From the NCBI GenBank assembly GCA_002010665.1, contig MTON01000028.1:1-61827 (forward strand): DNA of 61,827 nucleotides, read 5' to 3'. Source of the DNA: Candidatus Aminicenantes bacterium JdFR-78. GTDB lineage: Bacteria; Acidobacteriota; Aminicenantia; JdFR-78. This document shows positions 16,337-26,432 of this stretch, in pieces. The notes below the pieces were generated by a model. The model was given only the letters and a program-made list of their open reading frames with translations. It was not told the origin of the DNA and did no database searches. A program made the translations under genes and the position numbers. The number at the start of each line of letters is the position of its first letter. The stretch's first letter is position 1.

Positions 16337-18412
16337 ATGGGAAAATTTCAGAAATCAATATTAGTTTTACTTGTGGTAATCTCTTTCCTTTTTCAATTAG
16401 AGGCAAAGAAAAAGTCGGTAAAAGATTTACCACCGAAATATAGAAAATGGCTTGAGGAAGAGGTTGTCTATATAATTACCCCAAAAGAGAGAGAAGTATT
16501 TCTTCAGCTGGAAACAGATAAAGAGAGAGACCTGTTTATAGAAGCTTTCTGGAAACATCGAGATCCAACCCCAGGTACACCCGAAAATGAATTTAAAAAG
16601 GAACATTATAGAAGAATAGCTTATGCGAATCACATGTTTGGTAGGGGAACGCCGAAGCCTGGTTGGAAAACAGATAGGGGCAGATATTATATAATTTTAG
16701 GTCCTCCTCAAGATGTTCAGAGATTTGATGCAAAACAAAACCTTTATCCAGCTGAAATATGGTTTTATCAAGGCATGACAAAAAAGGGCTTGATTCCTGC
16801 TTTTTATCTTGTATTCATTCAGAGAGGTGGCACAGGAGAGTATGTTCTTTATAGTCCAGCAAGGGATGGGCCTCAAGCATTTATGCCGGATTACTGGGGA
16901 GATCCAGCTGATTATTTAAAAGCTTATGAAACATTGAAGGAAATAGAACCTGATCTTGCAAGAGTTTCACTTTCTTTAATCCCTGGAGAGGAATCCATAT
17001 ATGGAAGACCTTCATTAGCATCAGAAATTTTAATACAAAATATTAATTTACTTCCACAAAGACTGGTGGATGATAAATATGCTGAAAAACTTTTAAAGTT
17101 CAAAGATATAGTTGAAGTGGAATATACTGCTAATTACATTGATAATCGGTCATTAATAAAATATTACAGAGATCCCAATGGGTTATTCTTTATTTATTAT
17201 ATAATTCAGCCAGAAAGACTCTCAGTAGGTAGTTATGAATCTAAATATTATTCAAATTTAAAACTTAACGGAAAAATTACTGATTTAAAAGGAAAGGTTG
17301 TATTTCAGTATGAAAAAAACATTTCTTTCCAGTTTTCTGAAGACCAGCTTACTAAAATAAAAAATATTCCATTTAATATTTATGATATGATTCCCCTTGT
17401 TCCCGGGAATTATAAACTCTCAATTCTGCTAAAAAATACAGTTTCTAAGGAATTTACTTCAGTGGAGGAGGAAATTTCAATTCCCTCTGATTTATCAATG
17501 CTTCAGATGACACCTTTGGTATTGGGATATAAGATTGAACCTTTAAATAAATCCGTTAATAAACCATTCAATTTCAGTAATAAAGTTTTCTACTGTGTCC
17601 CTGACAATACATTTTCCACTTCAGACACCCTTTATATTTTCTTCCAAATATTTGGATTAACTCCTGAATTGAAAAAACAAGGTATATTAAAGTACACATT
17701 TTATAGAGGGAATGAAGAATATCAGACTTATACAGATGAATTAAAAAACTATTCGGAAAGTATGAATTTTATTCGTGAATTTGATCTAAAAGATTTTGCT
17801 CCCGCCCATTACAGAATAAAAGTTTCTCTTTTGAATGCCTCACAACAGGAAATATTATCAGAATTTGAGGAATTTGATCTATCTCCTATGGCAAGTTTAC
17901 CCCGCCCCTGGATATATACAAAGGTAATGCCTTCTTCAAATAGCTCTGTTTATCTTTATATTTTGGGAAGTCAATGGTTCAATATGGGAAAATTTGAGAT
18001 AGCTAAGAAATATTTTGAAGAGGCTTTCAAAAAAGACCCAAAATCAATAGATTATGCATTAAGTTTAGCAAAGGTCTATTCTATTTTAAAAGAATTTAAA
18101 AAAGTTAGACAAATATTATTGCCTTTAAAAAACAATGAAAAAGCTAATTTTGAATTATATTATCTTCTTGGAAAAGCTCATCAGATGCTGGGAGAATATA
18201 ACAAGGCGATTTCAGTCTATGAAGAAGCAATATCACACTTTGGTTTAAATATTCATCTGTTAAATTCAATTGGTGAATGCTACTACAGTATTGGGAATAT
18301 TGAAGAAACAATAAAAGCATGGAAGAAATCTCTTGAATTAAATCCAAATCAAAAGGAAATAAGAGATAAAATTAATTCTATAGAAAGGGAAAAGAATGAA
18401 TTTAAAAAATAG
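16337..18412 (+). CDS. GWxTD-domain secreted protein with C-terminal TPRs (large form)
   Basis: The 691-aa product starts with a signal peptide (hydrophobic residues about 7-21, ending near LEA). A GWxTD domain follows (about 30-200): VVYIITPKEREVF, FWKHRDPTPGTPENEF and the hallmark GWKTDRGRYYIILGPP near residue 115. A beta-rich middle (about 240-520) may be an Ig-like pair, and a C-terminal TPR block (about 535-690) has SQWFNMGKFEIAKKYFEEA and SIGNIEETIKAWKKSLELN. GWxTD proteins are extracytoplasmic and of unknown function. It is the first gene of a cluster and overlaps the next start by 17 bases. The broken gene at 22469 is a full-length paralogue. Confidence 0.85.
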   Translation: MGKFQKSILVLLVVISFLFQLEAKKKSVKDLPPKYRKWLEEEVVYIITPKEREVFLQLETDKERDLFIEAFWKHRDPTPGTPENEFKKEHYRRIAYANHMFGRGTPKPGWKTDRGRYYIILGPPQDVQRFDAKQNLYPAEIWFYQGMTKKGLIPAFYLVFIQRGGTGEYVLYSPARDGPQAFMPDYWGDPADYLKAYETLKEIEPDLARVSLSLIPGEESIYGRPSLASEILIQNINLLPQRLVDDKYAEKLLKFKDIVEVEYTANYIDNRSLIKYYRDPNGLFFIYYIIQPERLSVGSYESKYYSNLKLNGKITDLKGKVVFQYEKNISFQFSEDQLTKIKNIPFNIYDMIPLVPGNYKLSILLKNTVSKEFTSVEEEISIPSDLSMLQMTPLVLGYKIEPLNKSVNKPFNFSNKVFYCVPDNTFSTSDTLYIFFQIFGLTPELKKQGILKYTFYRGNEEYQTYTDELKNYSESMNFIREFDLKDFAPAHYRIKVSLLNASQQEILSEFEEFDLSPMASLPRPWIYTKVMPSSNSSVYLYILGSQWFNMGKFEIAKKYFEEAFKKDPKSIDYALSLAKVYSILKEFKKVRQILLPLKNNEKANFELYYLLGKAHQMLGEYNKAISVYEEAISHFGLNIHLLNSIGECYYSIGNIEETIKAWKKSLELNPNQKEIRDKINSIEREKNEFKK

Positions 18413-22382: not shown

Positions 22383-22448
22383 TTTTACAAAATTTTTACA
22401 ATTTTTTTACATTTTTGTGACAATTTTCTGAATTTATCCTCTTATATT
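22383..22448 (+). promoter_or_regulatory. Pho-box-like operator: four 11-bp-spaced repeats, then a -10
   Basis: TTTTACA occurs at 22383-22389, 22394-22400 and 22405-22411, and a fourth degenerate copy, TGTGACA, at 22416-22422. The period is exactly 11 bases, with 4-base AT-rich spacers. A -10-like TATATT lies at 22443-22448 and the ATG of the next gene at 22469. Seven-base direct repeats on an 11-base pitch just upstream of the -10 are the binding pattern of PhoB/OmpR-family activators, and TTTACA fits the TT(A/T/C)ACA consensus of Bacillus PhoP boxes. Which regulator binds here is inference; none is in the window. Confidence 0.5.
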
Positions 22449-22468
22449 TGTTTTAAGGGCGGGTTGAA

Positions 22469-23764
22469 ATGAGGAAAAAATTTTTCTCAATTTCAGGCAT
22501 ATTGTTAATTCCCTTATTGCTATCTCCATTTTTGCTTTATTCAAAGAAAAAGACGGAGCTACCTCCCAAATATAAAAAATGGATTGAAGAAGAAGTAGTT
22601 TATATTATAACACCAAAGGAGAGGGAAGTTTTTTATCAATTAGAAACAGATGCCCAGAGAGATAGATTTATAAAGGAGTTCTGGCGTCAGAGAGACCCCA
22701 CGCCAGGAACGCCCAGGAATGAATTTAAGATGGAGCATTACAGAAGAATTGAATATGCGAATAAATGGTTTGGGAGAGGGACATCGATACCAGGCTGGAA
22801 GACAGACAGAGGAAGGGTTTATATTATTCTTGGCGAACCAATATTTAGACAAACCTTCTCAGATCCCCGAATATACCCAGTAGAACTTTGGTTCTATCAA
22901 GGAGGAAAAGATCTTGCACCCTTTTTCTATGTCATATTTTATAAAAGGTTTTGGACAGGAAATTATGTACTTTACAGTCCATTAAGAGATGGACCAAAAA
23001 GTTTATTACCGGAAACGTCTCATGAAGCTTCACTTGGGGATCCATGGTACAGAACAAGATGGGCTTTAACGCTTTTATCAATGGTCTCCTATGAATTGAC
23101 GGAAGCTGCACAATCGCTAATTCCAGGTGATTCTGGGAGACATCCTCTTGAATCTGATAAATTGTTAAGTCAAATTGAAATTTATCCACAGGAAAAAGTA
23201 GATGATGGTTATGCTTATGAATTTCTGAAACATAAGGGCTTAGTAGAAGTTAGTTATTCAGTTCACTATATTGGAAATAAAAATCTTATAAAAACTTATT
23301 GTGATGAGAACGGAGTGTTCTTCATTCACTATGCAATTCAACCAGATAGCCTTTCAGTTGATGCTTATAAGAATAAATACTATTCAAACATTAAAATTTC
23401 AGTAAGAGTAACGGATTTAAGAGGAAGAACTGTATTTCAGTATAACAAATTCTATCCAATTGAATTGACAAAGAAGGAGATAAAATATGCAAAACTGAGA
23501 CCAATGAACATAGAAGATAGTTTTCCATTAATTCCAGGAAATTATAAATTCAATCTCCTTTTTGAAAACTTAGTTTCAAAGGAATTCACTTCCTTTGAGA
23601 GAGAAATCACAGTTCCTGAACCTTTGGACACTCCACAGATGAGTTCATTACTTTTAGCCTATAAAATAAGTGAAGACCAGGAACCATTGAGAAGAGCCTT
23701 TAAAATAGAGAATATAAGAATTTACCTGAGCATAGATAATAAATTTCATCGAAAAGAAACTTAA
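22469..23764 (+). CDS. GWxTD-domain secreted protein, N-terminal part before a premature stop
   Basis: These 431 codons encode a signal peptide (about 1-25), a GWxTD domain (VVYIITPKEREVF; GWKTDRGRVYIILGEP near 110) and the start of the beta-rich middle. The sequence follows the 691-aa protein at 16337 nearly to the end. Translation stops at a TAA at 23762-23764, but the same frame stays open afterwards and continues the homology through a TPR block to 24529. The TAA stands exactly where the paralogue has Leu (context DTLYIFFQ against ET-stop-YVYFQ), so TTA to TAA is the simplest change. The truncated product would lose its TPRs. It lies directly behind the phased operator. Confidence 0.75.
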   Translation: MRKKFFSISGILLIPLLLSPFLLYSKKKTELPPKYKKWIEEEVVYIITPKEREVFYQLETDAQRDRFIKEFWRQRDPTPGTPRNEFKMEHYRRIEYANKWFGRGTSIPGWKTDRGRVYIILGEPIFRQTFSDPRIYPVELWFYQGGKDLAPFFYVIFYKRFWTGNYVLYSPLRDGPKSLLPETSHEASLGDPWYRTRWALTLLSMVSYELTEAAQSLIPGDSGRHPLESDKLLSQIEIYPQEKVDDGYAYEFLKHKGLVEVSYSVHYIGNKNLIKTYCDENGVFFIHYAIQPDSLSVDAYKNKYYSNIKISVRVTDLRGRTVFQYNKFYPIELTKKEIKYAKLRPMNIEDSFPLIPGNYKFNLLFENLVSKEFTSFEREITVPEPLDTPQMSSLLLAYKISEDQEPLRRAFKIENIRIYLSIDNKFHRKET

Positions 23765-24529
23765 TATGTTTATTTTCAGGTATATAATATTAAAAATTTA
23801 ACAGAACAAGGAAAGATTAAATACACAATTTACAAAGGAAAGGAGAAAGTATATGCACGAGCAAAAGGAATAAAGGATTACAAGAATCCAGAGAATTTCA
23901 TAGAGGAATTTTCTCTTTCTGGATTTAAATCAGGAAAATATACATTAAAAGTTTCCATTTTAGATGAGAATAAAAAAGAGATACTTTCAGAGAAAGAAGA
24001 TTTCATAATTACAGAGAAGCCTTTTCCAAGAGCATGGATATATTCAAAGAAAGGCCCTCCTTCAGGAGATGCGGTTTATTCATACATTTTAGGAACACAA
24101 TTATTTAATAAGGGAGAGATTGAGAAAGCTTATCAGAAATTAAAAGAAGCATATGAGAAAAATCCCGAGTCTCTTGATTTTGCTTTGGCTTACTCACAGG
24201 TTCTTTTTATAAAAAAAGAATACAGAAAAATAAAAGAGATACTTACACCTTTTCTTGAAGGAGAAGTAAAAAATTATAGAATTTATACAATTTTAGGAAG
24301 AGCTTTACAGGAATTAGGAGGATATGAGCAAGCAATATTCTATTATCAGAAATTCATATCACATGAGGGAGTAAATTATCGGATTTTAAATTCAATTGGA
24401 GAATGTTATTATGCTTTAGGAAATATTGAAGAAGCACTCAGGGCATGGGAGAAATCCTTAGAGATAAATCCTTCCCAGGAAGAAATTCAAGAAAAAGTCC
24501 AGAGATTAAAAAAGAATAAGGGAAATTGA
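23765..24529 (+). pseudogene. C-terminal TPR part of the interrupted GWxTD gene
   Basis: This stretch is in the same reading frame as the gene ending at 23764 and has no stop until 24527-24529. It begins YVYFQVYNIKNLTEQGKIKY and continues with PRAWIYSKKGPPSG, then TPRs (GEIEKAYQKLKEAYEKNPE; LGNIEEALRAWEKSLEINP), matching residues about 440-690 of the intact paralogue at 16337. The first in-frame ATG or GTG with any ribosome-site potential is far inside (about 24185, 114 codons), so independent translation of a useful product is unlikely. Either the gene is a one-base pseudogene, or the assembly has an error, or there is read-through at the TAA. Confidence 0.7.
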
Positions 24530-24533
24530 AAGA

Positions 24534-26432
24534 ATGAGAAAATTAATATCTATGATAATTTTAATTTTTTTATTTTGTTCTTTTTCTCTCACTGAAAACA
24601 AGGACCTCCTCAAGAAAGCAGATTTGTTACTTGATATGATGGAATATGAGTCAGCAATTATTAATTATCTCAAGGCCTTATCAGGAAATCCCTTACAAAA
24701 AGATATTAGGAAAAAAATAGCTTATGCATATTATCAATTGGGGAAAATAGAGCAAAGCTTTAAATTTTTAAAGGAAGAACTGGAATTATTTCCAGAGAAT
24801 GAAGATGCATATGATTTTTTAATTTATCTATTATATAAACTTAATAAATTGGATGAAGTTAGTGTTTTTTTTCAAAAAACTGGAAATAATTTAAATATAG
24901 GCGGTTTAGGGTGTTTTATTCTCGGTATGCATTATAAAAGAAATAAAGACTATATGAAAGCAGAAATTTATTTCAGGAGAGCCTTAAAGAAAGGGTTTGA
25001 CAGAATACAATGTTATGTTCAATTACTGGATATGTATATTAATCAGTTAAAATTTTTCAATGATGGAGTTGAAATAGAATCTGGGTTGATTAAAATTCAC
25101 CCAGCATTATTTGAAAATCAAAAAGTGAGTTCATTATTAGCTAAGGCAACAGATTCATTTAAATACTGGGGACCTGAATATCTTTATGTAATTGGATTAA
25201 GATATTTTGAAAAGTCAAAAGGTGAGGTCAATAGCATATTTATGCGAAGGGCCATTGACTTTTTTAAATTAACTTTGGATCTATCTCCAAAATTTAAAGA
25301 TTCACTTTTTAGTTTAGGGGCTATTAATTACAATATTAGTAATTTTAGAGAAGCAGAAGAATACTTCCGAAGAATTCTTTATTTCGAACCAGAAAATAAA
25401 GAAGTCAAATATTATTTAGAGTGTGCTTTAAAAAAACTTAATAATTCAAAGAAAGAGGAATCGTCAAGTTCTTGTCCCGATATAATAAATCTGAGTAGAG
25501 AATTCATAGATAATCCAGACATAGAATACAAATATAAATTCCATAATGATATTACTTATGTAAGGGAAAATATAAATAATTTGGCTCTTGAATTTATTGA
25601 AAAAGGAAAATTTAAAGAAGCAATGAAAAGATTTAAGAATGCATTGAAGATTTATCCCCAGTGTCCGATTGTAAATTATAATATAGGATGGGTTTATTTC
25701 TGGCTTAATGATTATAAAAATGCTGAAAAACATGCTCTTATTGCACTAAGGAGAAAAAATTTTTATACAAGGTTGCCTGATAATTTGAGTAAAAAAGAAA
25801 GGAATGAACTTTTAAAAATGAGTATAAATATTCATGTTGAGTCAAATATACCTATCTCCCAATGGAATTTCGAAGTAGCATTAAAAGAAGGAAATTATTT
25901 TCCCGAGGATTATAATCTTTTAGGAAACATATATTTTAAAATTAAAGACTATTCAAGAGCACTTTTAGCATTTAAAAAAATTTTAGAGATTGACCCAAAA
26001 GACCCAATAGGTCATTACAATTTAGGATGTGTATATTCAGCATTAAATGACTGGAGAAAAGCAGAAGAAGAGTGGAAAAAAGCAATTAAGTATGAGAAAG
26101 GGGTGAAAAGAACAGAAAAGAGAGAGGAGATTTCAAGAAGCTATCTTCGAGTATCTTTACTTGTATTTAAATATCCAGTTGCATTTCGGGCACATAAATC
26201 TTTGGGATGGTTGTATCTTGACAGAAATTTACCAGATAAAGCATTGAAGGAATTTGAGGAGGCAATTAAATTAGAGCCAGGAGACCCAGAACCTTATTAT
26301 GAACTTGGAAAGATATACTTCTCTAAGAATAATCATAAGAAAGCGATTTATTATTTTGAGAAATATTTATATCTCGGGGGAGAGAAAGAAAAAGTAAAGA
26401 GAATATTAAATTCAATAAAAAGAAGAAAGTAA
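24534..26432 (+). CDS. Large secreted TPR protein
   Basis: The 632-aa product has a signal peptide (residues about 4-20, LIFLFCSFSL). Roughly a dozen TPR-like units follow in two blocks: about 25-300 (MMEYESAIINYLKAL, KAEIYFRRALKKG, NFREAEEYFRRILYFEP) and about 345-630 (GKFKEAMKRFKNALKIYP, RALLAFKKILEIDPKDP, KALKEFEEAIKLEPGDPEP). A low-complexity linker with SKKEESSSSCP separates them near residue 310. It starts 4 bases after the interrupted GWxTD gene and is the last plus-strand gene of the cluster. It should act outside the cytoplasm as a scaffold; no enzymatic motif is visible. Confidence 0.8.
   Translation: MRKLISMIILIFLFCSFSLTENKDLLKKADLLLDMMEYESAIINYLKALSGNPLQKDIRKKIAYAYYQLGKIEQSFKFLKEELELFPENEDAYDFLIYLLYKLNKLDEVSVFFQKTGNNLNIGGLGCFILGMHYKRNKDYMKAEIYFRRALKKGFDRIQCYVQLLDMYINQLKFFNDGVEIESGLIKIHPALFENQKVSSLLAKATDSFKYWGPEYLYVIGLRYFEKSKGEVNSIFMRRAIDFFKLTLDLSPKFKDSLFSLGAINYNISNFREAEEYFRRILYFEPENKEVKYYLECALKKLNNSKKEESSSSCPDIINLSREFIDNPDIEYKYKFHNDITYVRENINNLALEFIEKGKFKEAMKRFKNALKIYPQCPIVNYNIGWVYFWLNDYKNAEKHALIALRRKNFYTRLPDNLSKKERNELLKMSINIHVESNIPISQWNFEVALKEGNYFPEDYNLLGNIYFKIKDYSRALLAFKKILEIDPKDPIGHYNLGCVYSALNDWRKAEEEWKKAIKYEKGVKRTEKREEISRSYLRVSLLVFKYPVAFRAHKSLGWLYLDRNLPDKALKEFEEAIKLEPGDPEPYYELGKIYFSKNNHKKAIYYFEKYLYLGGEKEKVKRILNSIKRRK

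Follow-up and report, generated by a model that had tools for sequence, protein, structure and literature searches.

The window, that is, the whole stretch of 61,827 nucleotides that was analysed, carries a longer GWxTD/TPR cluster, within which a short promoter-like element was found to precede two closely spaced genes encoding a GWxTD-domain/TPR protein and a TPR-repeat protein (Table 1). The element starts 3 bases past the stop (22379) of the upstream TPR gene and comprises four direct repeats of a 7-bp word, a spacer and a TATATT hexamer. The repeats, their pitch and the TATATT had been described in the earlier note and were all confirmed at their positions, whereby the pitch of the four words (22383-22422) is exactly 11 bases and so falls within the 10-11 bp taken to define direct repeats of this kind. 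A TTGACA-like -35 element was looked for at the usual 17-bp distance before the window TATATT, and none was found. Transcription is predicted to start near 22455-22457, from where AAGGGCGGG leads to the ATG at 22469. The first gene of the pair is interrupted by a single in-frame TAA at 23762-23764, after which the frame is intact to 24529; the paralogue at 16337 possesses a leucine instead. This TAA may be a real nonsense change or an assembly error and, if real, might leave the output of the element partly broken. Three phosphodiesterase genes, to which the earlier note had drawn attention as neighbours, are real (PF01663), but they are convergent, lie on the other strand and are located outside the transcription unit of the window promoter.

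Table 1. Candidate operator-promoter element and the gene pair behind it (positions in the window).
Feature	Position	Strand	Basis or remark
Operator repeat 1, TTTTACA	22383..22389	+	Seen in sequence; window pattern test
Operator repeat 2, TTTTACA	22394..22400	+	Seen in sequence; window pattern test
Operator repeat 3, TTTTACA	22405..22411	+	Seen in sequence; window pattern test
Operator repeat 4, TGTGACA	22416..22422	+	Roughly -39 to -33, counted from the predicted transcription start
20-bp spacer, repeat 4 to -10	22423..22442	+	Equal length at C1; 20 bp preferred class-wide
-10 element TATATT	22443..22448	+	Class-wide -10 spacing and full-pattern counts
GWxTD-domain/TPR gene, first of pair	22469..24529	+	PF20094; reading frame
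TPR-repeat protein gene, second of pair, 4 bases after the first	24534..26432	+	Sequence

The rarity of the element was assessed by pattern searches with controls, and not with a weight matrix, in the window and in the genome (2.53 Mb scanned, 96.8% complete). Within the window, dinucleotide shuffling predicts 0.04 occurrences of the three-copy pattern when up to 3 mismatches are allowed, and the pattern was found with 0. Genome-wide, the exact pattern of four TKACA words, one every 11 bp, has just two occurrences, in the window and at C1:57567, and places with 3 mismatches are no more frequent than in the backward-read control. A third 0-mismatch pair in the genome, at C7:36331, resides inside a coding gene and was set aside as chance. 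The site at C1, beginning at C1:57565, is the sole other genome copy and a twin of the window site, sharing its words, its 11-bp pitch and its 20-bp gap to TATATT: it reads TTTTACA three times, followed twice by AAAT and then by TTTT, and continues with CGTGACA, 20 bp and TATATT, the fourth repeat thus being YGTGACA at both sites. The twin is located between a histidine kinase-response regulator pair of the OmpR/PhoB family and a secreted-protein operon, whereby it begins 2-3 bases past the stop of the OmpR-type response regulator gene, itself 3' of the histidine kinase gene. The operon behind it encodes a 170-aa secreted protein (ORF170) and a FecR/DUF6600 protein. The C1 response regulator (C1:56882-57559) possesses a receiver domain (PF00072) and a Trans_reg_C domain (PF00486), so that a candidate cognate regulator is encoded in the genome. 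It is one of only three Trans_reg_C proteins found there, and the other two, at C19 and C22, group apart from it, with relatives having other neighbours and kinases. No clear operator was identified upstream of the C1 kinase gene, leaving autoregulation at that position unsupported. Two further observations were made at C1, where the extracytoplasmic region of the kinase (L061:7886-9886) looks TPR-like, as is common to the kinases of the class, TPRs also being present in the GWxTD/TPR targets, and where the first ATG is located 5-6 bases past the TATATT -10 (L061:10620-10650), so that the mRNA would have little or no leader.

Relatives were compared within the class Aminicenantia, membership of which was inferred from named matches. 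Downstream of 35 response regulators from the C1 branch and nearby branches, self-similarity at lag 11 reached a Stouffer z of 8.3 and the other lags from 7 to 17 stayed at a z size of at most 1.7; such values are not calibrated probabilities, because an excess at lag 8 upstream of the relatives' GWxTD genes (L032-L060, L131-L136) reached a Stouffer z of 4.1 without explanation. The -10 position is likewise fixed, at 20 bp not only at the window and C1 sites but class-wide: in 14 of 24 pattern-found sites, exactly 20 bp separate the last word from a -10-like hexamer (0.9 expected, shuffle maximum 6), and the maximum of a word-independent test of the -10 spacing likewise falls at 19-20 bp (z 6.3). 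Searching for the full architecture (TKACA four times, 20 bp and TANNNT, with up to 2 mismatches) yielded 54 matches, spread over 39 of the 142 class genomes, against 0 in the backward-read control, with 35 of the 54 falling in genomes which had not been used to derive the pattern. Sites directly 3' of a response regulator gene of the C1 family were identified at L137 and L163 as well as in the further genomes L197, L208 and L209. Computation shows the architecture, how rare it is in the genome, that it is linked to the family of the C1 regulator and that the -10 stands at a fixed distance, and the proposal of the earlier note that the repeats are an operator for a PhoB/PhoP-type response regulator, joined to a -10, gained strong support from the twin site, the rarity, the class-wide repeats and the 20-bp gap.

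The words themselves vary among the relatives, comprising TTTACA/TTGACA and also CTTGACC, CTGGATA, TCAGAnn and TTCATGG types, and when compared by eye they appear to follow the regulator branch and its recognition helix. Among the other targets in the relatives, secreted and membrane proteins prevail (TPR/propeller, barrel-like, 5'-nucleotidase-like, UbiA-type and ARPP-1), besides radical-SAM proteins. In two regions, L111-L114 (G051:C36) and L115-L116 (G015:C20), modules of kinase, regulator and TPR/PD40-propeller genes are tandemly expanded, many of them with 11-bp-phased repeats of their own, and here the word varies from module to module along with the recognition helix. One match to the operator pattern, at L151 1501-1549 (G029:C104:14571), consists of near-perfect TTACACCTTTA tandem repeats beside a REP-associated-transposase-like gene and is probably an unrelated tandem repeat.

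Computational tests support the window element as a functional operator, almost certainly one for a two-component regulator whose gene lies elsewhere in the genome. We consider it quite probable that it is the operator-promoter of a two-component system of the OmpR/PhoB family, with the C1 response regulator as the likely binder activating the GWxTD/TPR pair. The C1 regulator, paired with the histidine kinase whose extracytoplasmic region looks TPR-like, is most likely the one involved, because the sole other full copy of the site directly follows its gene. In the OmpR/PhoB family, direct repeats are bound by regulators arranged as head-to-tail tandem dimers. M. tuberculosis PhoP requires words of 7 bp and a spacer of strictly 4 bp, which it binds as a tandem dimer, whereby three or four repeats are bound more tightly (PMC4832192). 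The four 7-bp words of the window, 4 bp apart, would accordingly accommodate four response regulator subunits, lined up head to tail along the same face of the helix. When bound and phosphorylated, the regulator would most likely recruit RNA polymerase at the 22383-22448 promoter, i.e., by class II activation. Activation is the likelier mode because repeat 4 reaches the -35 position and TATATT is not preceded by a good -35. The other site of the C1 regulator would drive the small secreted protein and the FecR/DUF6600 protein directly behind the regulator gene, and the window site would be a separate switch for the second GWxTD/TPR pair (22469-26432) in the larger cluster, the second half of which would have its own promoter. 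Which regulator binds, that it activates and the signal to which it responds are inferences; for the signal, some condition of the envelope is more probable than phosphate.

Response regulators of the OmpR/PhoB family can also repress, and the last repeat does overlap the -35 position, so that a regulator bound over about -72 to -33 might block polymerase. Such a repressor site is nevertheless unlikely, since the window promoter offers no consensus -35 to be blocked and since the 20-bp gap to the -10 is constant across many genomes, which is what activation needs, whereas repression tolerates variable spacing. That one of the other two Trans_reg_C regulators of the genome (C19 or C22), or a protein other than a response regulator, uses the window site was judged quite unlikely: the existence of these two proteins speaks for it, but both group away from the C1 regulator, with relatives having other neighbours, the second, almost identical site lies next to the C1 regulator, and the class-wide link concerns the branch of the latter. 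The stretch is T-rich, its tracts recur every 11 bp and the genome region around it has about 32% GC, so that it could further be taken as phased, curved A/T-tract DNA or as an UP element, aiding a constitutive promoter without any specific protein. This explanation is hardly credible, as GC-richer relatives keep TKACA at the same pitch with GC-containing spacers, as the class search gave 54 matches against 0 in the controls, and as sites are located behind response regulator genes.

The earlier note had further regarded phosphate-linked control of the envelope cluster as plausible, which would make the element a true Pho box and the C1 regulator a PhoB by which phosphate limitation turns on the GWxTD/TPR pair. 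The window element does consist of the 11-nt direct repeat units by which a Pho box is defined (PMC4415409), and both the pitch and the words fit. In addition, TIGR02154 (PhoB) is the best NCBIfam model for the C1 regulator, although its 221.8 bits are below the cut-off of 296.2, the PnpS, WalK and PhoR models lead for the C1 kinase, every one below cut-off, and some sites of relatives precede a 5'-nucleotidase-like gene. Against this stands that PhoU is missing from the genome, 96.8% complete as it is, though present in 57 of 60 relatives; its absence does not by itself decide the matter, since a Pho regulon without PhoU exists in B. subtilis (PMC4415409). Furthermore, PhoU-adjacent response regulators form a clade of their own (support 98/94) with the C1 regulator outside, and the recognition helix is DRTVDVHIRNLREKLG in that clade as against TRTIDNFIVKLRKKIE, the wing of the C1 regulator being different as well. 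No response regulator of the genome passes the PhoB models or falls into the PhoU-linked PhoB clade. No match to PstB above cut-off was found in the genome, and the sole PstS-like match is what we take to be a tungstate-type binding protein, encoded in an ABC operon beside a gene which we likewise take to be MoeA, so that the operon reads as tungstate uptake. Phosphate is probably taken up by PiT with a presumed DUF47-like partner at C9, a locus at which the genome pattern search revealed no operator. Nor do 11-bp-phased copies precede phosphate genes, the only two sites in the genome lying before the GWxTD/TPR pair and before ORF170-FecR/DUF6600. The lack of such copies and of a regulator that fits PhoB are, for this genome, two of the outcomes which the earlier note had itself named as refuting. 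With neither PhoU nor a bona fide Pst and with a regulator outside the PhoB clade, phosphate control was left unsupported; the Pho-box explanation as a whole is very unlikely, and a phosphate role for the window operator is unlikely.

Returning to an OmpR/PhoB-family operator served by the C1 regulator, its connection to GWxTD genes was followed among relatives. The closest relatives of the window GWxTD protein are 43-53% identical and come from Aminicenantes, an Acidobacteriota bacterium and Zixiibacteriota; because they are no closer than this, a same-genus footprint is not possible. The same operator was looked for at the GWxTD genes of relatives and was absent. As GWxTD genes elsewhere occur without the operator, its link to these genes would be a local, lineage-specific acquisition that leaves no phylogenetic footprint. 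The kind of operator is known, while the regulator branch, the promoter architecture seen across the class and the regulon itself are, as far as the literature searched shows, undescribed. The wider idea, that Aminicenantia possess an expanded, undescribed OmpR/PhoB-type branch organized in modules of kinase, regulator, an operator of four 11-bp units and a secreted TPR or TPR/propeller target, whereby the words change with the recognition helix, is to our judgement evenly poised between right and wrong. If it holds true, dozens of natural regulator-operator pairs would be at hand from which the DNA-recognition code of OmpR/PhoB-type regulators may become readable, and a regulon for envelope TPR proteins would be defined. 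The class would lend itself to testing how a DNA word is chosen by the recognition helix of OmpR/PhoB-type regulators, because regulators of this branch often adjoin their own operator. For function-unknown genes (GWxTD, DUF6600/FecR) of a largely uncultured class, the analysis assigns a probable regulator, a promoter and a two-operon regulon, and the same promoter type is recognisable in roughly one in four of the class genomes that were searched.

Among known systems, the Pho box of B. subtilis PhoP shares the 11-nt units, and TTTACA/TGACA resembles the PhoP word given in the earlier note. In contrast to the Pho regulon, neither site of this genome, devoid of PhoU and a bona fide Pst, precedes a phosphate gene, and the C1 regulator differs from PhoU-linked PhoB by clade, recognition helix and wing. 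When solved structures were compared by sequence, the best matches to the full-length C1 regulator were M. tuberculosis MtrA and RegX3 and cyanobacterial RpaA (E about 1e-49); towards the MtrA, YycF and RpaB models it stays below the cut-offs, so that none passes as an orthologue. The operators of M. tuberculosis PhoP, of E. coli KdpE, of PmrA and of PhoB, all belonging to the OmpR/PhoB family, resemble the window element in their 7-bp words, 4-bp spacer and direct repeat, in that more than two copies are possible and adjoin the -35/-10, and in being served by a regulator with receiver and winged-helix domains. Compared to these, the window element is distinguished by another regulator branch and another word, by envelope or secreted targets, and by an arrangement of four repeats, the last of which stands a constant 20 bp before the -10.
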